This document shows positions 21,547 through 51,504 of a DNA stretch of 51,504 nucleotides, piece after piece. This DNA is from a virus: positions 1-51,504 of IMG/VR virus record IMGVR_UViG_3300027413_000010; one strand, written 5' to 3'. The position numbers and the translations under genes are program-made. The notes beneath the pieces were generated by a model. The model was given only the letters and a program-made list of their open reading frames with translations. It did no database searches and had not been told where the DNA came from. The number at the start of each line of letters is the position of its first letter. Position 1 is the stretch's first letter.

Positions 21547-21567
21547 ACACTTAAAAAATAAAATAAT

Positions 21568-23052: not shown

Positions 23053-23072
23053 TAAACTAAATTTAAATAAAA

Positions 23073-26000
23073 ATGCCAATAGTATTACCATCAGGATTTC
23101 AAATAACGAGTACAGATCCAATAGATTCTAGGATAACAGTTGCTAGTCAAATCGAAAGGTTAGGATTTAGTGAATATAATGTCTATAACGGTTTACTTGT
23201 ATTTCAAAGAGATACTAATGAACTTTATGTTTTAACCGATACAGGATCACATACTTCTAACACAGGTTGGCAATTAGTAGGAAGTGGTTCTGGTGGAACT
23301 GTAGATACAGGTTCATTAATGACAACTGCATCTGCAGTCTTAAATGTTGTTACATTTACTAAAGGTGACGGTTCAACATTTGCAGTAACAGTAGACACAG
23401 GTTCAGGTGGAGGTTCAGTCCCTGCAGGAACAGTATCCTCATCAGCCCAAATCACAAACTTAGGGTTTATAAATGAAACAGTAACATCATCAATGTCTGT
23501 AGCAAGTGCTTCAATTGCTAATATAGCTACTTACACATCTGAATGGATTTTAGGAGCAAATGGCTTTTCGGATTATACATTTACAGGACCAGGTTTAACG
23601 GGAGCAGAAAATGACCCACTAATATATTTAACAAGAGGTCAACAATATGAGTTTACTAATAACATGAATGCTCATCCATTTAGGATACAATCAACTCCTA
23701 ATGGTTCAACTGGTACTCAATATAATGATGGTATAACAAATAATGATGTTTCAAATGGAACTTTATTATGGAATGTACAATTTGATTCACCTGATATTTT
23801 ATACTATCAGTGTACTGCACATCCAGCTATGGGTGGTAAAATTGTTATTATCAATTCAGGTTCAAGTGCTTCGATTCCATCAGGAACAGTTTCAAGTTCA
23901 GCCCAAATCACAAACTTAGGATTTGTACAAAGTTCAATTACGGCATCTTCATTAGAAACGGCTTCAGTAAATTTAAATGAAATAACATTTACAAAAGGAG
24001 ATGGCTCAACCTTTGCAGTAACAATAGACACAGGTTCAGGTGGAGGTTCAGTTCCCGCAGGAACAGTATCATCATCTCTTCAGATAACAAATTTAGGGTT
24101 TATAAACCAAACCCAAACTAGTTCAATGACAGTTGCTACAGCATCTTATGTAGCAGGAGCAAATGTAGATGGACAAGTAGCAAGTGCTTCAATTGCTGAA
24201 ACAGCATCTTATATAGAATTTAATGGTAATAGAGTTATTTCAAATCAATACCAACCAACAGGAATAAGAGGAGAAAATTACGGGACTAATAATTTAGTTG
24301 ATTTTATTGAGCAAGCATACTTTGCTAATTCTAACCCAATAATTAATTCTTTAGTATTTGATGTAAATGAATACTCAGCTCAAGGCACTACAGTAGGAAC
24401 TATATCATATACAGATCCAGAAGGTGCAGTAACATTCCAAACTCAAAGTTCATATACAGATGATGATTTTAGAGTAGCTAGTAATGGTGTAATAACAGTT
24501 CAAACAACTTTATTAACTGAATCTTTAGAAAATAATAACTCACAAGGATATGATGCAGTATTATTCCCAGTTAGAGGAACAGATGGTAGTGGAGCTACAG
24601 TAGATAAAGATTTATATATAAGAATAGCAAGTAATACCTCACCTGTTTTTAGAGAAAATGGTTTAGGTGGTAATGTATTACCAGGAGCTTTTACAGCCTC
24701 ATTAGCAGAAAGTTCAGCTGCAGGAGCTAAAGCAAATGGTACCGTGTATGTAACAGATATTAATGGAGATACACTTACACTTCAATCTGGATCTTTACCA
24801 ACAGCATTTACTAATGATTTTGATTTAACTATCCTATCAGATAGGTTTACACTTACCCAAACAACATCATCATTAGATTATGATACCAACCCAACTTATG
24901 ATTTTGTATTAACATCAAGTGATGAACATTACCAAAGTGGACAAGATCCATCAGCTATAACTTATTTAAATTATCATATTAGGGTATTAGATAATGCTAC
25001 CCCAACTATTAATAATCAACAATTTGATATTAATGAAAATGTTAATGTTAGTAATGGTCAAGGTTTAGTAAGTGGTGAGTATAGAAATGTAGGACAACTA
25101 TCAGCAGATGGTAATGATGTAGGAGATATAATTACTTATTCAAATTTTGTATTACAATCTTTATCAATAGGTGGTGTAAACGTTCCTTTAAATACATACA
25201 CAGGTGGAGGCCAATCAGACCCAACTGAAAATGCTTTTACAATGACATCAACAGGATATATTACTAGAATAAATGGTGTATTCGTTAATTCAGATTTAAT
25301 AGATTCTTATGTTTATCAAGTAACGGTTAGAGATCAATATGACCCAGGAAATGATACAGCATTAATCACTATTGACATAAATGATGATATAGCCCCAGCT
25401 ATAAACACTAACTATGGAGTAAGACCTTATGTAATAGAATCAGCATTAACTAATGCTTTAGCATATGTAAGTTCAAATGGATATTCAGGTATAATAGCTA
25501 CAAACTCTACAACATACAATACTCAAAATGAAACAGTATCATGGACTATAAACAGTCCAGGAAATTTATTAGGGTTTAATGGAACTCAACAAATACAACT
25601 AGCTCAAGATGTTAGTGGGTCTTATGTTGATGGTCAAACTATTACTTTTAGTGTAACAGCTTCAAATACATTTGGAACAGAAAATAGTCAAGTTTATACT
25701 TTAGAAGTAACAGAAAATCAAGCCCCAGGTGTATCATATAGTGATGTATCAGGAGGATTAACGGGTTCACAAACACCAGGAACTACAGTAGGTACGATAA
25801 CAGTTATAGACTCACAATCAGAAAATATTACTAATTTAGAATTAACAGGAGCAGATGCAGGTAGTTTTGTTTTAGGTTCTAACCCACCAGCAGGTTCTTC
25901 AAGAACTTGGGATTTAAATGTAGGAGCTAGTAATTTAGCAGCTGGAACTTATAGTTTAAATGGTGTAGGTACTGATGCTTATGGAAAATCAACTACTCAA

Positions 26001-26645
26001 CCAATATCTATAACTATATCATCAGCTGCAGCAACTAGTAAAGGATATGCTTACACTATGGATTTATCGGGAACAGTAAATAATGTGTTAGGTATAAGTT
26101 CTACAAATAGTTCAACACCACCAGTTCCAACAATATCTACTGTTTTTGGGTTATTAAATAATATAATAAACGAAGATAACTTAGGAGATGCTACTATTAC
26201 ATTTGATTATGGTGGAACTGACAACTATTCTATAGTTAGAGGTTATGAAGGACAAGGAACAACCCCAGATGATTTTATTAAAGATAATGATTTAGCAAAC
26301 GTATCAGTTGGTGATCAAGTAAGGTTATTATTATTTGTTCCTAAAAATGGTAATATGACAGATTTACCAACAAGTTTCTACTTTGGAGCTCCAAATGCAA
26401 GTAATACAACACCAAATCAATATTGTATATTCATAAATAGCACAAATACTTTTAGTAACGGTAGTGATGGAGGATTTTCAAATATTAAAGGAGCAAAAGT
26501 ATTTGATATTACCTTAAATACTGCAGTAGATGGTTATACAGATTGGTATTTAATAATAGCAGAGGATAGATATCAAAGTTCCACGGGTAATATTTATAGT
26601 AGAATGATACCAGCAGATGCTTCAGATGGAGGATTACCTAGTTAA
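23073..26645 (+). CDS. Long tail fibre protein with cupredoxin-like and cadherin-like domains
   Basis: 1190 residues. Residues 1-85 are the attachment domain shared with the previous gene; FTKGDGSTFAVTVDTGSGGG modules occur at 94-114 and again near 310. Residues about 175-262 form a cupredoxin-like domain: RGQQYEFTNNMNAHPF (H201) and ILYYQCTAHPAMGGKIVI (C247, H250, M253). Residues about 410-960 are consecutive beta domains with cadherin-like features (GTISYTDPEGAV, FDLTILSDRFTLT, VYQVTVRDQYDPGNDTALIT, IDINDD). The C-terminal part from about 1010 (KGYAYTMDLSG) is a globular tip with DWYLIIAEDRYQ. It is probably a distal fibre with a receptor-binding end. Copper binding is not certain because an axial Met at the usual spacing is not clear. 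Confidence 0.85.
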   Translation: MPIVLPSGFQITSTDPIDSRITVASQIERLGFSEYNVYNGLLVFQRDTNELYVLTDTGSHTSNTGWQLVGSGSGGTVDTGSLMTTASAVLNVVTFTKGDGSTFAVTVDTGSGGGSVPAGTVSSSAQITNLGFINETVTSSMSVASASIANIATYTSEWILGANGFSDYTFTGPGLTGAENDPLIYLTRGQQYEFTNNMNAHPFRIQSTPNGSTGTQYNDGITNNDVSNGTLLWNVQFDSPDILYYQCTAHPAMGGKIVIINSGSSASIPSGTVSSSAQITNLGFVQSSITASSLETASVNLNEITFTKGDGSTFAVTIDTGSGGGSVPAGTVSSSLQITNLGFINQTQTSSMTVATASYVAGANVDGQVASASIAETASYIEFNGNRVISNQYQPTGIRGENYGTNNLVDFIEQAYFANSNPIINSLVFDVNEYSAQGTTVGTISYTDPEGAVTFQTQSSYTDDDFRVASNGVITVQTTLLTESLENNNSQGYDAVLFPVRGTDGSGATVDKDLYIRIASNTSPVFRENGLGGNVLPGAFTASLAESSAAGAKANGTVYVTDINGDTLTLQSGSLPTAFTNDFDLTILSDRFTLTQTTSSLDYDTNPTYDFVLTSSDEHYQSGQDPSAITYLNYHIRVLDNATPTINNQQFDINENVNVSNGQGLVSGEYRNVGQLSADGNDVGDIITYSNFVLQSLSIGGVNVPLNTYTGGGQSDPTENAFTMTSTGYITRINGVFVNSDLIDSYVYQVTVRDQYDPGNDTALITIDINDDIAPAINTNYGVRPYVIESALTNALAYVSSNGYSGIIATNSTTYNTQNETVSWTINSPGNLLGFNGTQQIQLAQDVSGSYVDGQTITFSVTASNTFGTENSQVYTLEVTENQAPGVSYSDVSGGLTGSQTPGTTVGTITVIDSQSENITNLELTGADAGSFVLGSNPPAGSSRTWDLNVGASNLAAGTYSLNGVGTDAYGKSTTQPISITISSAAATSKGYAYTMDLSGTVNNVLGISSTNSSTPPVPTISTVFGLLNNIINEDNLGDATITFDYGGTDNYSIVRGYEGQGTTPDDFIKDNDLANVSVGDQVRLLLFVPKNGNMTDLPTSFYFGAPNASNTTPNQYCIFINSTNTFSNGSDGGFSNIKGAKVFDITLNTAVDGYTDWYLIIAEDRYQSSTGNIYSRMIPADASDGGLPS

Positions 26646-26666
26646 TAAACTAATAAAAAAGAAAAA

Positions 26667-27887
26667 ATGGCAATACCAATAGATGATGAATTAAGATTAG
26701 AAGCTTCCCTTACGGGTTCTGTAGCCTTAGCTAAAATCGACCATATACAAGGAGCCTTTAGAGTATTTACAACAGCTCAAGAGTTACAGAATCACCCTAT
26801 AGAACAAGCTGTAAGTGATCAAATAGTATGGTTAGAATCTAGCCAATCTTTATACCAAGCTACTGTAACCCCAGCTAGCCCTCCCGTTTCATTTTTCCCA
26901 ACACTATCTTGGAGTGCATTTACTTTCCCAGGTGGTGGAGGAAGTGCAGACACGGGTTCATTAATGACAACCGCATCTGCAGCTTTAAATGTTGTTACAT
27001 TTACTAAGGGTGATGGTTCAACATTTGCAGTAACAGTAGATACTGGTTCAGGTGGAGGTTCAGCAGATTTAACAGCAGATCTTACAGCTAATCTAACAGT
27101 TGGAGGTGTAACATCAGGAGAAACTTTTAATTCAGGTTCATCAATAGAAGCACTATTAAGAGATATGTTAATCACATATCAACAACCTACATTAGGTTCT
27201 TTAAGCATTAGAAGTGGAGGGTCATCTATTACTACTACTATATATGATGTAGGAGCTTCATTTACATCAGATAATGCTACATTTACAGCAGGAGTAGATT
27301 CACCAAACGGAGATTACCCACAATCAGCAAGTTTATCTTGCACAGGAGCTGATATTGGTTCATTCAGTGAAGATGGTCCAGACGATGTTCAAGCATCTAA
27401 CACAATAACATTTAGCACTACTCGAACAATTTCAAGAGCAACGGATTCAGGAACAGTACAATTTACAGTATCTACAGATAGTAGAAACAGTGGAGATACT
27501 CAATCAACAATAAAATATTACTATTTCCGTTGGAGAAACTATTTAGCAGCAAGTAGCACAGTAATAAATTCAAATGCTACATTACAAAGCGTATTAGACA
27601 ATGATTTAGTTCAGTCACCACTTGATACAAACAAAGTATGGACTGCAACTTGTAATGCTGATACTAATGACGGGACTAAATTTACATATATAATATATCC
27701 TGCTGCATATGGAAATATAAGTGGTATAATCCAAAATGGTGCTACACCTGTACTAGGAGCTTTTAATGATGCCCCAATAGGAGACTATACAGCTACTAAT
27801 AGTCAAGGATCTTCAAAAAGTTTTAGAGTTTATAAAACAAATGATCCTGGAGCATTTGGAAATGGAGTAACATTAGCAATATCATAA
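26667..27887 (+). CDS. Tail fibre protein, cassette gene 4
   Basis: 406 residues. The N-terminal ~85 residues (MAIPIDDELRLEASLTGSVA...) resemble a different attachment domain from those of the two genes before. Residues 92-132 repeat the DTGSLMTTASAALNVVTFTK module with very close DNA identity to 23300-23420. The C-terminal ~110 residues (VWTATCNADTNDGTKFTYII, YPAAYGNISGII, then SFRVYKTNDPGAFG) parallel the tips of cassette genes 1 and 2. It is therefore another mosaic fibre subunit or alternative tip, and the receptor is unknown. Confidence 0.8.
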   Translation: MAIPIDDELRLEASLTGSVALAKIDHIQGAFRVFTTAQELQNHPIEQAVSDQIVWLESSQSLYQATVTPASPPVSFFPTLSWSAFTFPGGGGSADTGSLMTTASAALNVVTFTKGDGSTFAVTVDTGSGGGSADLTADLTANLTVGGVTSGETFNSGSSIEALLRDMLITYQQPTLGSLSIRSGGSSITTTIYDVGASFTSDNATFTAGVDSPNGDYPQSASLSCTGADIGSFSEDGPDDVQASNTITFSTTRTISRATDSGTVQFTVSTDSRNSGDTQSTIKYYYFRWRNYLAASSTVINSNATLQSVLDNDLVQSPLDTNKVWTATCNADTNDGTKFTYIIYPAAYGNISGIIQNGATPVLGAFNDAPIGDYTATNSQGSSKSFRVYKTNDPGAFGNGVTLAIS

Positions 27888-27898
27888 AACAATAACAA

Positions 27899-28453
27899 AT
27901 GGCATTAAAATACCCTGACATATTAGAGCATAATAACCCCGATTACCCATTAGTAGATATTGTATCTTTAAAAGGAGTTACTATACCATTAGGATCTCTT
28001 TCTGAAACAAGTAGTAAAATACCCTCCCCAAAAAGAAATCCTGGTATAATAGTTTTTATAACAGGCTCTGGAGAGTTTTATGGATATAAAGGGCAAGATA
28101 TAACTAACTCAAACTGGGATAACCCATCAAACTGGGAAGAAATTGGTAGTGGTGGTGGAGGAGGAACTCCTGCTACACCATTAAATTCAGTTCAATTTAA
28201 CGATAATGGATCATTTGGAGGAGATCCTAGATTTGTATTTAACCCAACAACAGGTTTAGCTCAAATAAGTGGAAGTCTTCAGATTACTAGTTCAGTATCT
28301 AGTGATGTCTTTATTATTAAGAGTGGAAATACTGACATATTTAAGGTGCAGAATGACGGAGTAGTTGTATTTGCTTCCCAATCCGCTTTACCATCAGCTG
28401 TAGAAGGAGGAATGGTATACTCTGGTTCAGCTTTTTATGTAGGAGTAGAATAG
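27899..28453 (+). CDS. Short fibre protein, cassette gene 5
   Basis: 184 residues. An N-terminal attachment-like part (IIVFITGSGEFYGYKGQDI, NWEEIGSGGGGGTPATPL) leads through a polyglycine linker into LNSVQFNDNGSFGGDPRF, a string widely seen in phage fibres, and then a ISGSLQITSSVSSDVFIIK beta repeat. It ends with YSGSAFYVGVE. It lacks a large tip, so it may be a connector or a shortened fibre. It sits before a 116-nt structured spacer and the repeat-rich fibre gene. Confidence 0.75.
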   Translation: MALKYPDILEHNNPDYPLVDIVSLKGVTIPLGSLSETSSKIPSPKRNPGIIVFITGSGEFYGYKGQDITNSNWDNPSNWEEIGSGGGGGTPATPLNSVQFNDNGSFGGDPRFVFNPTTGLAQISGSLQITSSVSSDVFIIKSGNTDIFKVQNDGVVVFASQSALPSAVEGGMVYSGSAFYVGVE

Positions 28454-37458: not shown

Positions 37459-39516
37459 ATGTCATTTTTATTAAATCTTCAAACTGACCTTAAATCTTTA
37501 AAATTTGGAAAAGACCGCCCTGCAGAAGGATCTAGTCAACAACCATATGTAAAAGCAGCAATCCCTCCACAAAACCAGGATTATGCTGAAGCTATGGACA
37601 TACTAGGAACTCCTATAGGAACAGGAACTGATGCTTTAATAAGAGGAGGAATTTCATCCGCAGAACACATAGCTAGGGATTTAGAAAGAATTGGCAAATG
37701 GTTTTTTGATACTTCAAATCCAAGAGGAATTCAATTTGTAGCTAACCAAGGAATTCTATCAGAAATTTCAGTAAGAACTCAAGCTTCAATAGGTGCTAAA
37801 CCCAACCAAGGTTTTTATTCTCCATTACAGACTTTATATCAAATAGGGACTAACAATGTAGGAGGTCATTCTAATAGATTTTTAAAAGGTTTAATAAACC
37901 CCCTCAAACAAACTAGGACCTATATGGATGTCGTAGCTGGGAAAGGGAAAGATTTAAATAATAATAATATTTTAGATATTTCTATAGTTGAAGAAGCTAA
38001 TAATAGACTTGTATTATTAAATGATATTAAACAACTTAATTTAAAAGAAAAAATAGCTACACCTGGTGTAAAGATTGCTCAACAACAAAAAACACTAAAA
38101 AAAGCTTTAAGAGCAAATAGTATTGTAGTTAAAAAACCTAATACTATCCTTAGATACCAGGGTGGTCCTAATTCTACATTAGGGGCAGGAAATACTGATA
38201 TCTTTTTTGCTAAAGATAATCAAGGAAGAGATTTAAGAACAGGAATTAATAATCCTCAAATTGTTCCTCACTTATTAAATACTCCTTTAAAGGGTAGGGA
38301 TGGTATTGAAATAAAATCAACAAATATAAGTGATTTTAGAAATGTTAAGTTAGAAGATAATAAAACATCAACTATAATGGGTCTTGCTCCTAACTATAAT
38401 GCCTCAAATGCAGGAGAAAATTACACTATCGAAGGTCTAAAAGATTCAAGAATCCGAATGAAATCCCCGGGTCAAAGAGGAAATATAATAGATTATGCTG
38501 TGGGTAAAACCGATAGTAATGGAAACCCTGTAGGAGCTGTAGATTTAATTAATGCTCAACCTTTATACAGAAGTGGAGGTGTATTAAGTAAAGAAAAAGG
38601 GATAGCAAAAAATGACCTAGTTAAATTTAGGATAGCAGCAATAGATTCAGAAGATCCTTCTCAAAAAGAATTTATACATTTTAGAGCATTTATAAACAAT
38701 TTTACAGATAATTACCAAGGTAATTGGAATAGTGTATCATATATGGGTAGGGGAGAAGATTTTTATAGATATTCTAAATTTGCAAGGAGTATACAAATGG
38801 ATTTTACAGTTGCGGCTCAATCCAAACCCGAAATAATGGAACAGTATAAAAAATTAAACTTTTTAGTTTCTAATGCTTTTCCAGATTATACTAAAGCGGG
38901 TTATATGGCTGGACCTTTAGTTCAACTAACAATGGGAGGGTGGTGTTATGAACTACCAGGATTTTTAAATTCTGTAAATTTAGATATCCCACAAGAATCT
39001 CCATGGGAGATTGGGATAGATACTGTAGGTGAATCTGACCATTCAGTTAAAGAAATGCCTCATTATTGTAATGTAAGTTTGCAGTTTACTCCAATACATA
39101 ATTTTAGACCTTCTAAACAAAAGAATACTTATAAGGGAAAAAACATTACTAAATATGGACAAGAACGTTATATTGCACTATCACAAGGAAACCAATCATT
39201 TAACAATTATGATAATGACATAAGACCACAATTAGTTAGACCATTAAAAGAACCACTAACACCTATTGATTTATCAAGACCAGCAAATAATGGGAATAAT
39301 CCAATATTCCCAACAGGATTAAAATCCATACCCCCATATACACCACCAGGAGGAAAAATTGAAGAAATGAAATCTAACACAGGCAACTACCCAGATTCAC
39401 CTAGTAAAAGACAAATTAAAAAAGAGGAAAAACAAAAATCAAAAATTCTTAAAAGAGCTTTTGATGCTCCTGATATTGCTTCTAATATAGGAGGTGGATT
39501 TGGTAGTATTATTTAG
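37459..39516 (+). CDS. Baseplate tube-initiator-like protein (gp48/gp54-like by position)
   Basis: 685 residues. The N-terminal ~370 residues are mixed, with a proline-rich start (EGSSQQPYVKAAIPPQNQDY). The C-terminal domain from about residue 400 resembles a tail-tube-type beta-barrel: FIHFRAFINNFTDNYQGNWN, SYMGRGEDFYRYSKFARSIQ, MDFTVAAQSKPEIMEQYKKL, LVQLTMGGWCYELPGFLNSV. Such 'GR-E-D' domains occur in proteins that start the tube on the baseplate. In T4 the tape-measure gene is followed by genes 48 and 54 with this role, so a gp48/54 counterpart is likely, but I cannot choose between them. The tail after residue 600 is Pro/Lys-rich. Confidence 0.6.
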   Translation: MSFLLNLQTDLKSLKFGKDRPAEGSSQQPYVKAAIPPQNQDYAEAMDILGTPIGTGTDALIRGGISSAEHIARDLERIGKWFFDTSNPRGIQFVANQGILSEISVRTQASIGAKPNQGFYSPLQTLYQIGTNNVGGHSNRFLKGLINPLKQTRTYMDVVAGKGKDLNNNNILDISIVEEANNRLVLLNDIKQLNLKEKIATPGVKIAQQQKTLKKALRANSIVVKKPNTILRYQGGPNSTLGAGNTDIFFAKDNQGRDLRTGINNPQIVPHLLNTPLKGRDGIEIKSTNISDFRNVKLEDNKTSTIMGLAPNYNASNAGENYTIEGLKDSRIRMKSPGQRGNIIDYAVGKTDSNGNPVGAVDLINAQPLYRSGGVLSKEKGIAKNDLVKFRIAAIDSEDPSQKEFIHFRAFINNFTDNYQGNWNSVSYMGRGEDFYRYSKFARSIQMDFTVAAQSKPEIMEQYKKLNFLVSNAFPDYTKAGYMAGPLVQLTMGGWCYELPGFLNSVNLDIPQESPWEIGIDTVGESDHSVKEMPHYCNVSLQFTPIHNFRPSKQKNTYKGKNITKYGQERYIALSQGNQSFNNYDNDIRPQLVRPLKEPLTPIDLSRPANNGNNPIFPTGLKSIPPYTPPGGKIEEMKSNTGNYPDSPSKRQIKKEEKQKSKILKRAFDAPDIASNIGGGFGSII

Positions 39517-39529
39517 TATATTGTAAAAA

Positions 39530-39829
39530 ATGAATAGATACTCTCAAATACCAGAAACAAAATCTCCAGATGGGAAATTAATGTATAAAACTGTACGTTA
39601 TCCTGACATCCCAAAATCTTTTGAAGATACATATGTTTATACCACAATAGGAGATAGATTTGATACTTTAGCTCAACAATTCTATAGTGATTCAACTTTA
39701 TGGTGGATAATATCAGCAGCTAATGATAATTTAAATCAAGATTCTTTAACACCCCCTATAGGAACCCAAATTAGAATCCCTTCTAACCCATCACCAATCA
39801 TATCAGAATTCAAATTAATAAATTCATAA
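39530..39829 (+). CDS. 53: Baseplate wedge protein, gp53-like (LysM-type)
   Basis: 99 residues. The sequence YVYTTIGDRFDTLAQQFYSD then STLWWIISAANDNLNQDSLT and PPIGTQIRIPSNP is the LysM-like core of T4 gp53 (196 residues), which joins wedges to the hub. The usual 'GDR-x-D-x-L-A-x-x-F-Y-x-D-x-x-L-W-W-x-I' pattern is complete. The protein is shorter than T4's and consists of little more than the core. It lies four bases before the giant baseplate gene. Confidence 0.7.
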   Translation: MNRYSQIPETKSPDGKLMYKTVRYPDIPKSFEDTYVYTTIGDRFDTLAQQFYSDSTLWWIISAANDNLNQDSLTPPIGTQIRIPSNPSPIISEFKLINS

Positions 39830-39832
39830 TAT

Positions 39833-42800
39833 ATGGCTAATTTAATAGGAGAAGGTTTTAATGATTATGTTAGAAGGCAAATAATCCATCGACAAAAAAT
39901 TTACGGTTCAGGAGTTTCCGAAGGAAGAACTGAAAAAGAAATTACATATTTAAATTCTAGAACAGCTTGGATTAAAGTTGCATCATCAGTTTCTTTAGAA
40001 TCCTCAGAAAAAGAAAAGGATGATAAAGAAACAATGGCTAAATTAAGAAGAAAAAATTTAGGTTTAGTAGGAGAAATTAGTTTGAAAAAAGATTTAGCTA
40101 AAAAGTTTGTTTTGTTTAATGGGGTTTCAAGCTTAAATAAAGATAGTGGTAGTATTCTTAAACAAAGATCTGGATATTTAGATTCCAACACAGATAAACA
40201 ATCAACCCATAATTTTTCATATGGTATGGGGGGACTAGAATTTGGTTTACAGCCCATGCCAGGTATTATAAGTATGAATGTTGAAGCTTTAAATATGGGT
40301 TCTTTAAAAAAAACCATATTAAAAATAAAAGCTTACAATAAGGAACAATTAGCCATATTAGATGTATTATACCTAAGATTAGGTTATACTTTGCTTGTAG
40401 AATTTGGTAATAACTTATATTTAGATAAAAATGGAGATGTTCAAAATATGGGAACTACCTTAATTGAAGATAAATTTTTTTCTGAAGAATTAGTAGGTAA
40501 ATCCTATAGAGGACTCCTACCAGAAATAGAAAAAAAACGATTAGAATATTGTGGAAATTATGATGCTTTTTTTGGAAGAATAACTAATTTTTCTTGGGAT
40601 TTTAATCCTGATGGAAGTTATGACATTGAAATTCAATTGTATAGTTTGGGAGATGTTATTGAATCCTTAAAACTAAACCAAGTAAATACTAAAGGATTGC
40701 TTGAAAAATTTAAAAATTCTAATAAGGATCAAAAGAAACACATGGCTTCTAGGTTTAAAAAAGATTATAAAGATGAAGATATCCTAGAATTTTTAGAGCA
40801 ACAAGAAAGAGAACGAAATAAAATTTATGAGTACCTTAAAGAAATTCAAACTTTTGATAGTTATAAAGATAGTGAAAAGTTTATTAAAGAATTAGATAAA
40901 AATATTGTAACAAACCAACAACAAGCGGCAGCAGTAGTAGAGTTAAGTACAACTTATCAAAATAATGATACAACTGGACAACAATTTGAAGCAGTAGTTT
41001 CCAATCAAACACAAACTGCAGCTAATGAGGCTTTTAAAAAAGCAAAAGGTGATTTAATAGCCTATGATGGTACTGAATATTTTAGGGTTTTTAAACTCTC
41101 AGAAGATGGTAACCCTGCCAATGCAAGTATATTTTATCATAAATCACTTGGATTAGATAGTGGGGATTTAAGTACTCTAAGAGAAAGAAGCATCAGTTCC
41201 TCCCCAGGATTAACCGAATCAGAAATTAGTGGAGGAAGTACATTAAAATATAACAATGAACTTAAGAATTTATCTGATAATTACAGTGATTTTAAAAAAG
41301 TAGATTATACAGAAACATTTAAGGGAACTACTTTTACAGTTCAAATATATGCCTTTACTAATGATTTCATTACTTCCGGAAATTATGTAGGAGAACAAAT
41401 AAAATTTAAAGATGTTGATCCTTTTAAAAACCAAGCAGTAGATGAAAATATCAAAGAAAAAGAATCCTTGGGTTTTATATCTATAGAGTTTTACACTAAT
41501 GGAGAAAAATATGACATAACTTTTTTTGAAAATTCTACTTTTGAAAATTTCAACCCTCAATTAGGAATTCAAACCCAAGGTTCTGAAGCTAGAAATAGAG
41601 TTCCATTCCCTTCAGATTTTGACGACAAAATTTTAGCAGAAAATAATTCTATAATTGGAGCTGCACAAGAAAAAATAAATGATTCATTAGACCCAGATTT
41701 TAATTTAACAAAAAACAAATCGAAAGAAACAATCCCAGTAAATAGCCAAGTTCATGTAAAAATCACTAAATTTAAACAAAAATCAAAAAATGAAAGGATA
41801 GGACACGTAATTAATCATAAAGTAGGATGGAATTTAACTAAACTTTATAAAACAAGATCTAAAACAAGTGACCATATTAAGATAAAAAAATACCAACCTA
41901 TAGATAATAGTTATTTTATTAGATTTGGAACTTTTTTAGAGTTTATTAAAGAAAACATTTTATATAAGGTAAATAATGGAGGAAGTAAAAAATCAAACTC
42001 ATCAATTTTTCAATTAGATACTGACATTGATTCTAATATTATGTATACTCTGCCTAACCATGTTTCATTAGACCCTACACAAGCAATAGTAAATGTTAAT
42101 ATTAAGTCTATAGGTTCTAATATTAAAACTTTTACAGGGTTAGAAGAATTTCAAAATACAAAACCTTTTTATGGGAAAATAATGAACATATACCTATCCC
42201 ATGATTTCATATTTGAACAATTATCAGCAAATGTAGATGAAAAAAACAACCTTATATTATTTAATTTTTTAGATTCAATATGTACGAGATTAAATGTTAT
42301 TTTTGGGGGAATTAATAACCTTCATCCTTCTATAGATGAAACCACAAATTGCATTAAAATCTACGATGATACTCCAATACCTAATTTAGGCAAAATATCT
42401 GACTATTTAGTTAATAAGAATCCTACTAAATATAAATTTTATGAAGATGTAACTAATTTCCAATGGAATTGTAATACTCTACCAAATCAATCTCTGGATT
42501 ATACTCTTAATTTATATGGTTATAATGGTACTAAAACTGAATCTAATTTTGTAACTGATGTTAAAATCAAAACAAAAGTAACAAAAGATATAGCTACTAT
42601 GCTATCTATAGGAGCTACAGCTAATGGTTATGTAGTAGGAGAAGAGGCAACAGCTTTTTCAAAATGGAATTATGGTATAAAAGATAGATATTATGAAGAA
42701 ATAGTTGATGCTGAATATGATGAAAAAATAGAATCAGAAATAGCTGAAACTTTAAAAAAAGAAAATGAAGAAATTCAAAGAACTTATGCTTATATGATTT

Positions 42801-44875: not shown

Positions 44876-46135
44876 TTGTTTTGGCTAATTGAAAATACAG
44901 ACCAATTAAAAGGTTTTTACAATAAAGGTTACAAAGAAGCTTATATAGAAGTTATACCATATTCTTATAAAACTCATCCTGTAACTAATAAAGTATCCTT
45001 AATATATGTACATCCTATAGATGCACATAAGGGCTATATTATATCAATAAACCACAGCGAATCAATGCCGTTAAACAGCGAGTATATTGCTGAATTAATT
45101 AATGGGTATGATAAATTATACGTTTGGGGTAAAAAGGAATTCTTACATTATTTTGTGCATAGAAATATAATAGATGTTTCTCTTGCATCCCCAGAATATG
45201 AGATGGAAACTACTAAAGCTCACCAAATATTATCACAAAGAGCTAAAGATAAGTTGGATATTAATAGAATAGTTCCTATCGTTAAACATTACGAAACGTG
45301 TGAAAAAAATTATAATAACCTAAAACAACATTTTAATGCACCAGTCAATGAATTTTACAATAGCAGAGTACCATTGGTATTCAACTCCATCGAAAGGAAT
45401 GGTTTACGAGTTCAAAGAGAACTCTTCAAAGAACACTTCAACCAAGATTGGGGAGATAGAGTCTACACACAATATAACTACAGAACAACCACAACAAGAC
45501 CTTCAAACCGTTTTGGAGGGGTTAACTTTGCAGCATTAAATAAAGAAAATGGAACCAGAAAAACATTCATACCTGAGAATGATAGATTGGTTGAAATTGA
45601 CATTTCAGCTTATCATCCTACTCTTGCTAGCTCCCTTATTCATTATAACTTTGGTGATGACGATATTCATAGATCATTTGCGAGACTTTATAATGTCGAT
45701 TATAAAAAAGCGAAAGAATTAACATTCAAACAACTTTATGGTGGAGTTTTTAAACAATACCAACACCTAGAATTTTTCCAAAAGATTCAAACTTACATAA
45801 ACGAGATATGGAGCCAATTCCAAAATGAAGGTTTTATAGAATGTCCTATATCAAAATACAGATTTGAGCGTGATAAATTAGATAATATGAACCCACAAAA
45901 GTTGTTCAATTATTTGCTACAAAATTTGGAAACCTCAACAAATGTTCGTATATTATGGGAAATAATTAAGATATTAAAAAACAAACAAACTAAACTAATT
46001 CTTTATACTTACGATGCGTTTTTGTTAGATGTACATAAGGGAGAGAAAGAGGAGATAAAACTAATATTAGATGTATTTAAAAAACATAAACTAAAAGTAA
46101 AGATAAAACATGGAAACAGCTACGATTTTAAATAA
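44876..46135 (+). CDS. Compact, divergent family A DNA polymerase
   Basis: 419 residues, starting at TTG (a stop at 44870-44872 excludes any earlier start; the first in-frame ATG would remove 63 residues). Family A palm and fingers motifs are present: motif A VEIDISAYHPTLASSL (D242), motif B YKKAKELTFKQLYGG (K280, F284, Y288, matching the A-K-x3-F-x3-YG of Pol I) and motif C YTYDAFLLDV (D380). Motif A lacks the usual Glu (His247 in its place) and motif C has YDA instead of HDE. The N-terminal ~170 residues show no clear exonuclease motif. The 5' nuclease, SSB and helicase are encoded nearby as separate proteins. It is probably the replicative polymerase; activity is inferred. Confidence 0.75.
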   Translation: MFWLIENTDQLKGFYNKGYKEAYIEVIPYSYKTHPVTNKVSLIYVHPIDAHKGYIISINHSESMPLNSEYIAELINGYDKLYVWGKKEFLHYFVHRNIIDVSLASPEYEMETTKAHQILSQRAKDKLDINRIVPIVKHYETCEKNYNNLKQHFNAPVNEFYNSRVPLVFNSIERNGLRVQRELFKEHFNQDWGDRVYTQYNYRTTTTRPSNRFGGVNFAALNKENGTRKTFIPENDRLVEIDISAYHPTLASSLIHYNFGDDDIHRSFARLYNVDYKKAKELTFKQLYGGVFKQYQHLEFFQKIQTYINEIWSQFQNEGFIECPISKYRFERDKLDNMNPQKLFNYLLQNLETSTNVRILWEIIKILKNKQTKLILYTYDAFLLDVHKGEKEEIKLILDVFKKHKLKVKIKHGNSYDFK

Positions 46136-46580
46136 TAATACTGATATGTATAAGACGAATTACGACTTTGAAAGTCCTTATAATATTAGCGATTTGAATA
46201 ATAAATTATTTTGTACATTTACTACATTAGATAATTTAGAGGGACTTGTATCTAGTCTCTCTTCTAAATACTCAATCATGTATAACAAAATGTTTGCGTT
46301 ATATGTTAAGAGTAATGATGAGTATGTTTTGACTTATAATGTCGATCAAGGTAACGTAAGCGAAATTCCAGATAATACAATATTAGTACATAGAAAAAAA
46401 GAAACAAATACTCTATATACTATAAACGCCTTAAACGAGCTAATCAAAAGCCTAAACGGAGGAGTAGTAAACACTAAATTTCCTATAGATTGGAAACACT
46501 ATAGAAATTGTATACTATTAACCCAACACAACGAGTTAAAACAACTCAACACCAAAATACACAAAATAATCGAACTATAA
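46110..46580 (+). CDS. Unknown protein overlapping the polymerase gene
   Basis: 156 residues starting inside the polymerase gene (26-nt overlap), so probably coupled to it. Recognisable features are few: a polar N-terminus, LEGLVSSLSSKYSIMYNKMF (beta-alpha), VLTYNVDQGNVSEIPDNTIL, and RKKETNTLYTINALNELIKS with a Gly pair, followed by FPIDWKHYRNCILLTQHNEL. The last two strings recall short proteins in other marine phages that have no function assigned. Its tight coupling with the polymerase suggests an accessory or regulatory role, such as a processivity factor or loader, but no clamp-like signature is visible. Confidence 0.7.
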   Translation: METATILNNNTDMYKTNYDFESPYNISDLNNKLFCTFTTLDNLEGLVSSLSSKYSIMYNKMFALYVKSNDEYVLTYNVDQGNVSEIPDNTILVHRKKETNTLYTINALNELIKSLNGGVVNTKFPIDWKHYRNCILLTQHNELKQLNTKIHKIIEL

Positions 46581-46612
46581 TTTGGATTCCAAATAATCAG
46601 TTTGTATATTCA
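46581..46612 (+). promoter_or_regulatory. Bacteroidota-type promoter upstream of the gp32-like gene
   Basis: TTTG (46581-46584), 20 nt, then TATATTCA (46605-46612). Start codon at 46643, 31 nt later, with an A-rich leader. Confidence 0.55.
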
Positions 46613-46642
46613 TGTCGAAATTTTTAAAAAACAGTTATAATT

Positions 46643-47473
46643 ATGGATTTAAGCAAAATCAAAAATCGCTTGGACAATCTAAATCAGACCTCCAAGCCCA
46701 AAAATACAGAAAAAAAGGACTATACATTAATCTATTGGAAACCCAAAGCAGAAGGAAAATTCCAAATCAGGTTTGTACCTTCGAAACTCAACAAAGACAA
46801 CCCCTTTCAGGAAATTTTCATGCATTATGGCATTGGAAAGTTCCCAATAGTGGCATTAACAAACTGGGGAGAAAACGATCCAGTAGTTGAATTTTCTAAA
46901 AAACTAAGAACATCATCTGACTCTGAAAATTGGAGACTAGCAAAACAACTAGATCCTAAAATGAGAGTATTCGCTCCTGTTATTGTTAGAGGAGAAGAAG
47001 AAAAAGGTGTTAGATTATTTGAATTTAGTAAAACACTATACATGGAATTATTATCAGTTGCTGATGATGAGGATTACGGTGATTTTACAGACATTAATCA
47101 AGGTTTTGACTTTGTAGTAACAGCTACTAAAGTACAAGATAGACCTGGATTTGGATTAAGTCTAAGACCAAAACCAAAACAAACACCAATTAGTGAAGAT
47201 GCTGATCAAGTAAAAACATGGTTAGAAAACCAACCAATTTTGCTAGAAGAAAGATTCAAGTACACTTACGATAAACTAAAGGAAGAATTACAAACATTCA
47301 TATCTGGAGGCGAAGAAACAGAAGGTTCAATTTCATCAGAACCAGCTGTAGCATTTGAAGCAGAAACACCAGTTAAAGAAGAAAAGAAATTCACATTATC
47401 CACCCAAGGTACACCTAAGAAAGCAAAATCAGAGGAATTTGATTCATTGTTTGACGATGATTTACCATTTTAA
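46643..47473 (+). CDS. 32: Single-stranded DNA-binding protein (gp32-like)
   Basis: 276 residues (T4 gp32 is 301). It coats single strands during replication and recombination. The N-terminal MDLSKIKNRLDNLNQT helix corresponds to the cooperative basic region. The core has YTLIYWKPKAEGKFQIRFVP, FMHYGIGKFPIVALTNWGEN, VRLFEFSKTLYMELLSVADD and GFDFVVTATKVQDRPGFGLS. No cysteine occurs where T4 gp32 has its zinc ribbon. The C-terminal ~60 residues are acidic and disordered and end FDSLFDDDLPF, which is the bacterial SSB-type tip (DDDIPF in E. coli). An overlapping start at 46612 in another frame is spurious. Confidence 0.92.
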   Translation: MDLSKIKNRLDNLNQTSKPKNTEKKDYTLIYWKPKAEGKFQIRFVPSKLNKDNPFQEIFMHYGIGKFPIVALTNWGENDPVVEFSKKLRTSSDSENWRLAKQLDPKMRVFAPVIVRGEEEKGVRLFEFSKTLYMELLSVADDEDYGDFTDINQGFDFVVTATKVQDRPGFGLSLRPKPKQTPISEDADQVKTWLENQPILLEERFKYTYDKLKEELQTFISGGEETEGSISSEPAVAFEAETPVKEEKKFTLSTQGTPKKAKSEEFDSLFDDDLPF

Positions 47474-47483
47474 TCAGTAGTAC

Positions 47484-48560
47484 ATGGCTAGAGTTAAAAA
47501 ATCACTATCGGAGGCAGTCTCCAAAGAAATAAAATCTAAGTTTGATTTAAGTTCCTTCAAAGAAAAGAAGGGACTTAAACAAAATGTCAAGTTTAAAGAC
47601 CAAGAATGGATTCCACTATCATCTGCATTTCAAGATGTCACATCAATACCAGGTATTCCTACAGGGCATATTGTTTTACTTAGAGGTCACTCTGATACAG
47701 GTAAAACAACAGCACTATTAGAAGCAGCTGTATCAGCTCAAAAGAGAGGTATATTACCTGTTTTTATTATCACAGAGATGAAATGGAACTGGGAACATGC
47801 TAAACAAATGGGATTACAATTTAATGAAGTAGTAGATGAAAAAACTGGAGAAATTACAAATTTTGAAGGTGAATTTATTTATGCTGACAGAGAAACTATC
47901 CATAGTATAGAAGATGTTGCTGGATTTATTTTAGATTTAATGGATGAGCAAAAGAGAGGTAACTTACCATATGATTTATTATTCTTATGGGATTCAATAG
48001 GGTCAGTTCCTTGTGAATTATCTATTAAATCAAACAAAAACAACAATGAATGGAATGCGGGTGCTATGTCTACTCAATTTGGTAATAGTGTTAATCAAAG
48101 AATTACATTATCAAGAAAAGAATCATCAGCATATACTAATACATTAGTTTGTATTAATAAAGTATGGACAGCAAAAGCAGAATCACCTATGGGTAAACCC
48201 AAGCTAATGAACAAAGGCGGATTTGCTATGTGGTTTGATTCTACATTCGTAGTTACATTTGGTAATATTTCAAATGCTGGTACATCTAAAATTAAAGCAA
48301 TCAAAGATGGCAAGCAAGTAGAATTTGCTAAAAGAGTTAATCTACAGATTGATAAAAACCATATTAACGGGGTTACTACAAGAGGTAAAATTGTAATGAC
48401 ACCACATGGATTTATTAATGACGATGATAAAGAACTAAAAGCCTATAAAGACCAAAATGCCACAGCATGGAAAGATATTTTAGGTGGAACAGATTTTACA
48501 ATCGTAGAAGAAGAACAAGCGTATAACGATATTACAACGTATACAGACGAACCTCAATAA
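47484..48560 (+). CDS. uvsX: RecA-like recombinase (UvsX)
   Basis: 358 residues (T4 UvsX is 391). It pairs strands in recombination-dependent replication. Motifs: Walker A GHSDTGKT (68-75), catalytic Glu in ITEMKWN (E98), Walker B LLFLWDS (D170), and a strand-exchange loop around NEWNAGAMSTQFGNSVNQRI. The core after GGFAMWFDSTFVVTFGN fits the RecA/UvsX fold. It starts ten nt after the gp32-like gene, so both are likely on one message. The C-terminus is acidic. A terminator follows. Confidence 0.94.
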   Translation: MARVKKSLSEAVSKEIKSKFDLSSFKEKKGLKQNVKFKDQEWIPLSSAFQDVTSIPGIPTGHIVLLRGHSDTGKTTALLEAAVSAQKRGILPVFIITEMKWNWEHAKQMGLQFNEVVDEKTGEITNFEGEFIYADRETIHSIEDVAGFILDLMDEQKRGNLPYDLLFLWDSIGSVPCELSIKSNKNNNEWNAGAMSTQFGNSVNQRITLSRKESSAYTNTLVCINKVWTAKAESPMGKPKLMNKGGFAMWFDSTFVVTFGNISNAGTSKIKAIKDGKQVEFAKRVNLQIDKNHINGVTTRGKIVMTPHGFINDDDKELKAYKDQNATAWKDILGGTDFTIVEEEQAYNDITTYTDEPQ

Positions 48561-48567
48561 ACAACTT

Positions 48568-48600
48568 ATAGCGTCTTCGTTGGAGACGCTATTTTTTTTT
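48568..48600 (+). terminator. Intrinsic terminator after uvsX
   Basis: Nine-pair stem ATAGCGTCT/AGACGCTAT with a seven-base loop and nine T (48592-48600). The TTG of the next promoter lies in the loop, so terminator and promoter overlap. Confidence 0.92.
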
Positions 48601-48610
48601 CGTATATTCC
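48580..48610 (+). promoter_or_regulatory. Bacteroidota-type promoter upstream of the 5' nuclease gene
   Basis: TTG (48580-48582), 20 nt, then TATATTCC (48603-48610). The first element lies in the uvsX terminator loop. The start codon follows at 48624. Confidence 0.55.
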
Positions 48611-48623
48611 CAATAAAATATTT

Positions 48624-49655
48624 ATGGATAAAAAACAATTACTTAATCTCCTGAATGATACTCAAGAGAATGATAACACCCTGCAAGAAGGCAAGCGAAT
48701 ATTGCTTATAGATGGTCTAAACTTATTTTTTAGAAATTTCGCCATTATGAATATGGTTAATCCTGATGGGATTCATATAGGGGGATTAGGTGGTTTTTTT
48801 CGTTCATTAGGAGCTATGATTCGTCAAACACAACCTGACCAAGTTTATGTTGTATTTGATGGAGCAGGTTCTACTATAGGTAGAAAAAATCTATTACCTG
48901 AATACAAATCAGGTAGAAATGAGCAACGAGTTACAAATTGGGAAATATTTGATGATTTAAATGATGAACATGATTCTAAAGTAGATCAAATAGTTAGAGT
49001 AATACATTACCTAAAAACACTACCAGTTAAAACATTAATATTAGACAAAGTAGAAGCGGATGATATCATCGCTTATTTGTGTGATAAATTACCAAATCAC
49101 CAGGACGATAAACTATTCATAGTATCTAGCGATAAGGATTTCCTACAGCTAGTAAACAAAAATGTTATAGTTTATAGACCAATGGAGAAAAAATATTATA
49201 CTGAAGATTTAATAAAAGAAAAGTATAATATGCCTGCTCAAAACTTTATATTACATAAAACCCTATTAGGAGATAATTCTGATAAAATCAAAGGTGTTAA
49301 GGGTTTGGGTGAAAAGGGTTTAATGAAAAAATTCCCTGAATTATCCGAAGGAGTTATGTCATTTGATGACATATTAGACATATGTGAGAAAAAATATAAA
49401 GACCATGTTGTATATGCTCGTATTATACAAAGTGTAGAAGATTTAGAAAAAAATTACACTGTAATGGATTTATCAAATCCTATGATTGGAGAAAATGATA
49501 AAAAATGGTTAGATGAAGTTGTCAAATCAGAAGAATTAAATTATATTCCAGAGCAGTTCATAGCTCTCTATAACGAAGATAAACTAGGTGGAATGATTAG
49601 AAACTTAGATTATTGGTTAAAAGAGAATTTTGAAAAATTAGTTATAAGTAAATAA
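48624..49655 (+). CDS. 5'-3' exonuclease / flap endonuclease (T4 RNase H-like)
   Basis: 343 residues. The metal-binding acidic residues of the FEN family are visible: D30 in LLIDGLNLFFR, D79 in YVVFDGAG, E144-D146-D147 in KVEADDIIAYL and D170/D172 in VSSDKDFLQL. The helix-hairpin-helix region (GDNSDKIKGVKGLGEKGLMK) follows. It matches T4 RNase H (rnh, 305 residues) and the 5' nuclease domain of Pol I, and removes RNA primers and flaps. Since the polymerase here has no 5' nuclease domain, this protein probably supplies it. It ends seven bases before the helicase gene. Confidence 0.93.
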   Translation: MDKKQLLNLLNDTQENDNTLQEGKRILLIDGLNLFFRNFAIMNMVNPDGIHIGGLGGFFRSLGAMIRQTQPDQVYVVFDGAGSTIGRKNLLPEYKSGRNEQRVTNWEIFDDLNDEHDSKVDQIVRVIHYLKTLPVKTLILDKVEADDIIAYLCDKLPNHQDDKLFIVSSDKDFLQLVNKNVIVYRPMEKKYYTEDLIKEKYNMPAQNFILHKTLLGDNSDKIKGVKGLGEKGLMKKFPELSEGVMSFDDILDICEKKYKDHVVYARIIQSVEDLEKNYTVMDLSNPMIGENDKKWLDEVVKSEELNYIPEQFIALYNEDKLGGMIRNLDYWLKENFEKLVISK

Positions 49656-49662
49656 AAGTTAT

Positions 49663-51015
49663 ATGACATTAAAATCAATCCAAGAATATGGCCCTAAATT
49701 TCAGGTCAAGGTTCTATCATCTTTACTAACACATAAAGAATTTTTAGTAAACATTTATGATATATTAAATGAGGAAGATTTTAATAATCAGGCTCACAGA
49801 TGGGTTGTAAAAGAAATAATTAAATACTACGACAAATATCATACTACACCTTCACTAGACATACTTAAAGTTGAAGTTAAAAAGGTAGAAAACGAAGTAT
49901 TACAATTATCAATAAAAGAACAATTAAGAGAAGCATACATAGCTTCAGATGAAGATTTAAAATATGTTCAAGAAGAATTTACAGGTTTTTGTAAAAACCA
50001 ACAATTAAAAAAAGCATTACTATCATCTGTAGATTTACTTAAAGCAGGTGACTATGATTCTATTAAAATAATGGTTGAAGAAGCACTAAAAGCAGGTGCT
50101 GATAAAAACATAGGACACGAGTATAACTTAGATATTGAAACTAGATATAGAGAAGATACTAGAAATCCAGTTGCTACACCATGGCCTAGGATTAATGAAT
50201 TACTACAAGGTGGATTAGGGCAAGGAGATTTTGGTTTAATATTTGGTAACCCTGGAGGAGGTAAATCTTGGTCATTAGTAGCACTAGGAGGACATGCTGT
50301 AAGAATGGGTTACAACGTTTTACATTATACTCTAGAATTAGGTGAAGATTATGTAGGTAGAAGATATGATTCATTTTTTACTAAAATACCAGTTAATCAT
50401 ATTACTTCCCATCAAGACCAAGTAAAAGAAATTATTCCCCAAATACCAGGGAAACTAGTTATTAAAGAATTCCCAATGGGAAAGGCCACAATTCACACAG
50501 TAGAATCGCATATTAGAAAATGTACTGATTTAGAAATCAAACCAGATCTTGTAATAATAGATTATGTTGATCTTCTTTCATCAAGAAGGAAAAATGTTGA
50601 CCGTAAGTATGAAATTGATGATATTTATACAAGCACAAAAGGTCTTGCTCGTGAGCTAAACGTACCAATTTGGTCGGTTTCACAAGTTAATAGAGCGGGT
50701 GCAAAGGACGATGTCATAGAAGGGGACAAAGCAGCAGGATCTTATGATAAGATTATGATAACTGATTTTTGTCTTTCGTTGTCTAGGAAGGCAAAGGATA
50801 AAGTAAATGGCACTGGAAGGTTTCATGTAATGAAAAACAGATACGGAATGGATGGTTTAACATATGGAGTAAAAGCAGACACATCAACAGGACATTTTGA
50901 AGTCCATGATTATGATGAAGATAGCGAATTAGAAGCCCCTTCTAAACCAGTTAATTCTAATTCCAATTTAGATCATTTTGATCTTAAAAAGTTAAATCAG
51001 GAATTTAATTCCTAA
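49663..51015 (+). CDS. 41: Replicative DNA helicase (gp41-like, DnaB-type)
   Basis: 450 residues (T4 gp41 is 475). The N-terminal ~150 residues are a helical primase-interaction domain (KYHTTPSLDILKVEVKKVEN). The RecA-type motor has Walker A GNPGGGKS (195-202), a catalytic Glu in HYTLELGEDYVGRRYDS, Walker B LVIIDYVDLL (D300) and the motif SVSQVNRAGAKDD with a glutamine sensor. The end is disordered and acidic, with FDLKKLNQEFNS last. A gp61-type primase is not seen in the window. Translation is probably coupled with the nuclease upstream; nrdB follows after 13 nt. Confidence 0.94.
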   Translation: MTLKSIQEYGPKFQVKVLSSLLTHKEFLVNIYDILNEEDFNNQAHRWVVKEIIKYYDKYHTTPSLDILKVEVKKVENEVLQLSIKEQLREAYIASDEDLKYVQEEFTGFCKNQQLKKALLSSVDLLKAGDYDSIKIMVEEALKAGADKNIGHEYNLDIETRYREDTRNPVATPWPRINELLQGGLGQGDFGLIFGNPGGGKSWSLVALGGHAVRMGYNVLHYTLELGEDYVGRRYDSFFTKIPVNHITSHQDQVKEIIPQIPGKLVIKEFPMGKATIHTVESHIRKCTDLEIKPDLVIIDYVDLLSSRRKNVDRKYEIDDIYTSTKGLARELNVPIWSVSQVNRAGAKDDVIEGDKAAGSYDKIMITDFCLSLSRKAKDKVNGTGRFHVMKNRYGMDGLTYGVKADTSTGHFEVHDYDEDSELEAPSKPVNSNSNLDHFDLKKLNQEFNS

Positions 51016-51028
51016 AATTAAATAAATT

Positions 51029-51504
51029 ATGGCTAAAACAAATCTACTCCAGGAAAGGATAGTATATAAACCTTTCGAATACCAAGAAGCAGCTGATTAC
51101 TGGCTCAAACAACAGCAAGCACATTGGTTACATACAGAAGTTCCAATGATGTCAGATGTTAATGATTGGAAACAAAACCTATCAGAAACAGAAAAAAATA
51201 TTATAGGGTCAATATTAAAGGGTTTTGCTCAAACAGAAACAGTTGTAAATGATTATTGGAGTGGATTAGTCACAAAATGGTTTAGAAAACCAGAAGTCAT
51301 AATGATGGCTACAACATTTGGAGCATTTGAAACAATACATGCAGAAGCTTATTCTTTATTAAATGAAACATTAGGTTTAGAAAATTTTGATGAATTTTTA
51401 GAAGATGAAGCTACAATGGCTAAAATAGAAAATTTAACTACTATTAGAGATAGCTTTAATGGAGAAAAAGATGTACATGAAATAGCAAAATCATTAGCTA
51501 TATT
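51029..51504 (+). CDS. nrdB: Ribonucleotide reductase small subunit (NrdB), 5' part
   Basis: 158 complete codons are visible and the gene runs off the window. It starts MAKTNLLQERIVYKPFEYQE. Metal-ligand motifs of the class I beta subunit can be placed: GFAQTETVVNDYW (a Glu where E. coli NrdB has Asp84) and AFETIHAEAYSLL (Glu and His ligands and the radical Tyr, E-x2-H-x3-Y). The dimetal-tyrosyl mechanism is therefore retained at least in this part; the remaining ligands lie beyond the end. It supplies deoxynucleotides for phage replication, as in T4 and marine T4-like phages. The start is ATG after an A-rich leader. Confidence 0.93.
   Translation, partial: MAKTNLLQERIVYKPFEYQEAADYWLKQQQAHWLHTEVPMMSDVNDWKQNLSETEKNIIGSILKGFAQTETVVNDYWSGLVTKWFRKPEVIMMATTFGAFETIHAEAYSLLNETLGLENFDEFLEDEATMAKIENLTTIRDSFNGEKDVHEIAKSLAI

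Follow-up and report, generated by a model that had tools for sequence, protein, structure and literature searches.

A small family A DNA polymerase with histidine at the steric-gate position is encoded in the replication operon of T4-type phages and is probably an accessory enzyme

INTRODUCTION

The replication of phage T4 is textbook material and relies on one polymerase, gp43, which belongs to family B. We analyzed a 51,504-nt viral stretch (IMGVR_UViG_3300027413_000010, positions 1 to 51,504; here called the window), a fragment of a phage genome in which a gene of the family A (Pol I) type lies beside gp32-, UvsX-, and gp41-like genes. This raises the question of what a family A polymerase does in a T4-type replication operon and whether it is the replicase of the phage. 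The homologue in Flavobacterium phage immuto is already annotated "DNA polymerase family A." The parts of the Far-T4 paper available to us mention DNA polymerases without resolving these (PMC4360716). A search of the open-access literature found no description of the small-polymerase subfamily or of phages with such a second polymerase, and no relevant account of immuto. We propose, with a probability of about 0.6, that the gene encodes an accessory, exonuclease-less family A DNA polymerase that works beside a separate main replicase.

RESULTS

The ORF at 44876 to 46135 encodes a small polymerase of the Pol I type

On re-checking the ORF, we found that the coordinates, 419-aa length, and motifs given by the first-pass annotation were exact. 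The short spacings it reported were also confirmed: D242 and K280 lie 38 residues apart, and D380 follows K280 by 100, whereas the E. coli Pol I values are 53 and 124. The ORF begins with TTG. In 27 relatives with the start inside the contig, ATG or TTG is found at the identical codon, usually with an in-frame stop 0 to 6 codons upstream. We therefore take TTG to be the true start. The gene, its parts, and the genes downstream are as follows.

44876..46135, + strand: small family A DNA polymerase, 419 aa, TTG start (ORF, PF00476, phrog_17, AF2, profile-profile alignment)
44876..45250, + strand: N-terminal exonuclease-like domain, aa 1 to 125, predicted to be inactive (AF2 model and alignment A3)
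45482..45508, + strand: TTTTRPSN-type motif, aa 203 to 211, counterpart of Pol I TATGRLSS with R668 (alignment)
45593..45628, + strand: motif A EIDISAYHPTLA, aa 240 to 251, with catalytic D242 and with H247 at the steric-gate Glu position (alignment)
45701..45745, + strand: motif B YKKAKELTFKQLYGG, aa 276 to 290, with K280, F284, and Y288 and with Y276 at the Arg754 position (alignment)
46004..46030, + strand: motif C YTYDAFLLD, aa 377 to 385, with catalytic D380, Y379 for His881, and Ala/Ser for Glu883 (alignment)
46110..46580, + strand: partner ORF, 156 aa, overlapping the polymerase gene by 26 nt (conserved gene order)
46643..47473, + strand: gp32-like single-stranded DNA-binding protein, in the operon of the polymerase (Pfam/PHROG profile matches)
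47484..48560, + strand: UvsX/RecA-like recombinase, same operon (Pfam/PHROG profile matches)
48624..49655, + strand: 5'-3' exonuclease of the Pol I/FEN type, same operon (Pfam/PHROG profile matches)
49663..51015, + strand: DnaB/gp41-like replicative helicase, same operon (Pfam/PHROG profile matches)
51029..51504, + strand: ribonucleotide reductase beta subunit, truncated where the window ends (in relatives, the replicative polymerase locus lies far beyond this point)

PF00476 (DNA_pol_A) matched the window protein with an E value of 1.3e-3 (18.2 bits, under the cut-off of 34.3) and its immuto homologue, gp001, with 43.9 bits; the best E value among relatives was 4.6e-11. The window protein also matched phrog_17, "DNA polymerase" (E = 1.5e-5). 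When we aligned a 19-member profile of the small polymerase with a six-member profile of canonical Pol A, the match had 99% probability (E = 5e-19), and the positions of R668, R682, D705, K758, F762, Y766, Q849, and D882 were in register. The best matches of the profile to single sequences were the Pol A proteins of HTVC033P (E = 3e-8) and CRP-235 (E = 5e-8). A phmmer search of PDB sequences with the protein gave no match. One scan yielded 329 viral stretches that encode relatives.

The first-pass annotation had asked for a structure prediction, and this gave a right-hand, Klenow-type fold. The AF2 model, built only from the protein's own homologues, is a compact Klenow fold (pLDDT, 84.8; pTM, 0.85). 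Its structural matches were Klenow and apicoplast polymerases, with E values of about 6e-17 (6.6e-17 for Klenow), and VIA gave a Z of 25.4 to 6vdd_A over 388 residues. The model aligns end to end with Bst fragment 300-876, over up to 396 residues, which would place aa 1 to 125 where the exonuclease domain lies. Profile, fold, and motif evidence thus agree with the earlier description of a small family A polymerase with altered catalytic motifs. We assign the product to family A (the Pol I type) on its profile matches, predicted fold, and motifs, and the resemblance is not due to chance.

The predicted protein shares its right-hand fold and layout with the Klenow part of bacterial Pol I (E. coli, Bst, and Mycobacterium smegmatis), and it retains the equivalents of R668, R682, D705, K758, F762, Y766, N845, Q849, and D882. 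It differs from Klenow in its length (419 aa versus about 605 aa), its shorter fingers and exonuclease-like domain, its changes of Glu710 to His, Arg754 to Tyr, and His881 to Tyr, and the encoding of the 5' nuclease by a separate gene.

Catalytic residues are invariant, and His replaces the steric-gate Glu

Across 82 full-length homologues, the equivalents of R668, D705, K758, F762, Y766, Q849, and D882 are invariant (82/82). Residues D242, D380, K280, F284, and Y288 of the window protein are unchanged in this set, and the Asp, Lys, Phe, and Tyr residues that define family A are therefore all present. The motif A steric-gate Glu, which is typical of the family rather than defining for it, is absent: the Glu710 position is His in 82/82, and the His881 position is likewise Tyr in 82/82. 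The Arg754 position is Tyr in 80 homologues and Leu in 2, and the Glu883 position is Ser in 42 and Ala in 40. This active site persists down to 28 to 29% identity (Microcystis phage Mel-JY01 and LR756508). The dN/dS ratios against ten relatives were about 0.07 to 0.19, indicating purifying selection. Taken together, the invariant catalytic residues, the invariant His and Tyr, and a dN/dS of about 0.1 suggest that the small polymerase is most likely catalytically active.

The first-pass annotation had treated YDA in place of HDE as an oddity, which proved to be partly ordinary. The change at Glu883 is by itself unremarkable, because phage Pol A enzymes often have HDS and because the Pol A of Thermus phage Tt72 is active with Ser at this position (PMC9324360). 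The change of His881 to Tyr is unusual. Judging from the alignments, what sets the active site apart is His at the Glu710 position and Tyr at those of Arg754 and His881. Arg754 and His881 help to bind the incoming nucleotide, and the loss of both counts against our main reading.

These replacements could also mean that the protein has lost its catalytic activity and persists as a replisome subunit with a structural or regulatory role, like the C-terminal half of Pol epsilon. Glu710, Arg754, and His881 are all replaced, and the exonuclease-like domain lacks conserved catalytic acids, as a dead subunit might. However, in an inactive enzyme some of the remaining active-site residues should have changed, and both metal-binding Asp residues, Lys758, Phe762, Tyr766, and Gln849 are kept in 82/82. 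The activity of Tt72 Pol A with its Ser, and the apparently accessory part played by its counterpart of Glu710, also speak against this reading (PMC9324360). We consider a dead subunit unlikely.

The same His raises the question of whether the enzyme accepts ribonucleotides and makes primers or mixed RNA/DNA. Single-subunit RNA polymerases also do without a steric-gate Glu. In Pol I, Glu710 is the residue that excludes ribonucleotides (PMC13228545), and it is His in every homologue of the small polymerase. Against this, the enzyme retains Phe762, and immuto, G001, G009, G010, G012, and G013 encode a DnaG-type primase. Moreover, aromatic residues serve as the gate in other families, and a bulky His could do so too. 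We found no match to T7 RNA polymerase with hhalign, in a single-sequence test that was likewise blind to T7 DNA polymerase and to a canonical Pol A of immuto (gp199). Overall, a ribonucleotide-accepting primer enzyme seems doubtful.

The exonuclease-like domain is predicted to be inactive

We looked for invariant Asp or Glu residues in aa 1 to 128 of an alignment of 14 diverse homologues (A3) and found none, so the acids of a DEDD exonuclease are missing from this region. The small polymerase should therefore not proofread. The earlier statement that there is no 3'-5' exonuclease motif thus holds for catalysis, given the lack of conserved acids, but not for the domain itself, since the N-terminal 125 or so residues fill its place in the model.

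A protein without an active exonuclease site might be one half of a split Pol I, with the proofreading half elsewhere in the genome. However, the N-terminal domain still occupies the exonuclease position in the model, and the 3'-5' exonucleases that we found were part of a family B polymerase (G001) or of a 777-aa Pol A (immuto). The split polymerase of RM378 had been offered as a precedent. The similarity is that RM378, a myovirus, combines T4-like virion genes with a polymerase that is split or unusual. When we translated P0005 and P0006, we found family B motifs (DLDFTSLYPS, KIMMNSMYG, and HTDS) and the exonuclease as a separate protein. The RM378 polymerase is thus a family B enzyme, split between exonuclease and polymerase and not homologous to the small polymerase, and it therefore provides no precedent for this family A gene. 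An RM378-type split polymerase was ruled out for the window protein, which is family A and lacks family B motifs, and we regard a split Pol I as highly improbable.

Relatives carry a separate main polymerase

The first-pass annotation had placed the small polymerase in the position of gp43. Consistent with a sole replicative polymerase, no other polymerase lies within the 51.5-kb window. However, the 3' end of the window falls inside the ribonucleotide reductase gene, before the locus at which relatives encode a complete gp43 or another polymerase, the finding named in advance as contradicting that placement. G001 (154,840 bp) has a 123-bp direct terminal repeat and is therefore probably complete. 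At 130901 to 133531, upstream of GroES/GroEL, it encodes an intact 876-aa family B polymerase with a 3'-5' exonuclease (PF00136 and PF03104; phrog_262, E = 7e-141). G002 matches the window in gene order (the two are collinear), with 84% DNA identity over the replication module; it encodes a gp43-type enzyme split into 558 and 325 aa between motifs B and C (45560 to 48463; L063). We also found family B polymerases in G009, G011, G014 to G018, Mel-JY01, and the 484-kb LR756508. In immuto, the cultured relative, gp199 (37898 to 40231; L041) is a canonical 777-aa Pol A with a PF01612 exonuclease, directly before GroES/EL.

The relatives whose contigs demonstrably span the GroES/EL locus have a gp43-type family B polymerase or a full Pol A there. 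We found no family B polymerase in the long contigs G010, G012, and G013, which end before GroES/EL. That the small polymerase is the sole replicase is therefore very improbable. The small enzyme is kept whichever main polymerase family is present. For the phage from which the window derives, the window being a fragment, relatives suggest that the main replicase would be a separate gp43-type family B enzyme or, as in immuto, a full-length Pol A; the split family B form of G002 is what we would expect.

In most relatives, the gp43-type polymerase is split just before motif C into genes of about 560 to 600 and 320 aa. The two genes overlap by 4 nt in G011 (57794 to 60456; L153-L154) and are separated by gaps of about 250 to 260 nt in G002 and G009 (G009, 132662 to 135683; L167), with an 87-aa ORF between the halves in G002. 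Splitting of gp43 is already known from Aeromonas phages 25 and 44RR (PMC2988022). Upstream of GroES/GroEL, the main polymerase of immuto belongs to family A and that of G001 to family B, an apparent swap of the replicase family. Right after the family B polymerase genes is a conserved ORF of about 245 aa (G001, 133534 to 134268; G002, 48460 to 49200). It had no Pfam or PHROG match; its position leads us to guess that it assists the polymerase, for instance as a clamp.

The small polymerase is encoded with a conserved partner and replication genes

The order small polymerase, partner, gp32, UvsX, 5'-3' exonuclease, and gp41 is found in the window, immuto, G001, G002, G009, and others, with small insertions within the operon in some relatives, including Mel-JY01 and LR756508. 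A partner gene of about 155 aa lies downstream of the polymerase in all 91 loci that extend far enough; 14 further loci end at a contig edge and were left out of this count. It usually overlaps the polymerase gene by about 20 to 35 nt. Among 50,697 phage records, partner and polymerase were found in the identical six when more distant family A hits were disregarded. Pairwise distances of the small polymerase track those of gp41 and FEN (Spearman, 0.95), the partner (0.89), and UvsX (0.79), which is in line with joint vertical inheritance of the operon genes.

The core of the partner ORF is strongly conserved (LFCTFT ... ILVHRKKETNTLYTINALNELI ... ILLTQH). The window's partner ORF had no Pfam match and only weak, scattered PHROG matches, and its AF2 model was poor (pLDDT, 54.7). 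From its constant position, the partner is probably a polymerase cofactor.

The genome scan also returned 8 loci from cellular bins (several flavobacterial and others assigned to Rickettsiaceae, Nitrosopelagicus, or no taxon). The partner gene is present in all five that we examined, and most of these have the phage operon too; the bin loci are therefore probably phage DNA. Two are distant homologues with 35 to 37% identity, one in a Rickettsiaceae bin (L188, 7902 to 9185) with phage operon genes and one in a Nitrosopelagicus bin (L189, 455 to 1801) with the partner gene; both are probably phage contigs.

DISCUSSION

According to our model, the small enzyme would be made together with gp32, UvsX, the Pol I/FEN-type 5'-3' exonuclease, and the gp41 helicase. 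This co-production would make short DNA synthesis on gp32/UvsX-coated intermediates its most likely task. Going by the neighboring genes, it may fill gaps or process Okazaki fragments after the adjacent 5' nuclease has removed primers; alternatively, it may extend D-loops in recombination or synthesize past damage. Catalysis would follow the usual two-metal mechanism, using D242 and D380 together with K280 and Y288. With His in place of the Glu gate and Arg754 and His881 lost, altered nucleotide (sugar) selection, speed, or fidelity would be expected, and the direction of any change in selectivity is not readable from the sequence.

A more specific version is that the enzyme and its inseparable partner form a two-part, His-gated polymerase for UvsX/gp32 recombination-linked synthesis that accepts ribonucleotides or damaged templates. 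We hold this to be a speculative and rather improbable extension. If true, it would be a class of phage accessory polymerase without earlier description.

Immuto gp001 (NC_055915, 160 kb) is a direct homologue of the small polymerase, with 38% identity, a common operon, and the same altered motifs; the main polymerase of immuto, in contrast, is a second, canonical Pol A (gp199) and not family B. The Mel-JY01 protein WWT39333.1 (408 aa, about 29% identity) shares the His and YDA signature, the operon, and the partner gene. It is annotated "hypothetical protein," and the phage also has a family B polymerase. The phage Pol A proteins of T7 (gp5), HTVC033P, CRP-235, and Goe7 belong to the same family, the last three with HDS in motif C, but these phage Pol A enzymes keep the steric-gate Glu and the motif B Arg and are annotated as the DNA polymerase of their phage.

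A broad group of marine and aquatic T4-type phages thus keeps a second, family A polymerase whether the main one is family B or family A, which opens the question of why labor should have to be divided in a T4-type replisome. The strictly conserved change of Glu to His is a natural one, at the site responsible for excluding ribonucleotides from DNA, and it offers a small natural enzyme for probing what the steric gate does. There is also a caution for annotation: a "Pol A" gene found on a metagenomic contig need not be the replicase.

Elsewhere in the window, at 20098 to 28453, several tail-fibre-like ORFs share a related N-terminal module (TGSLMTTASA...TKGD), and these are unevenly conserved in G002.
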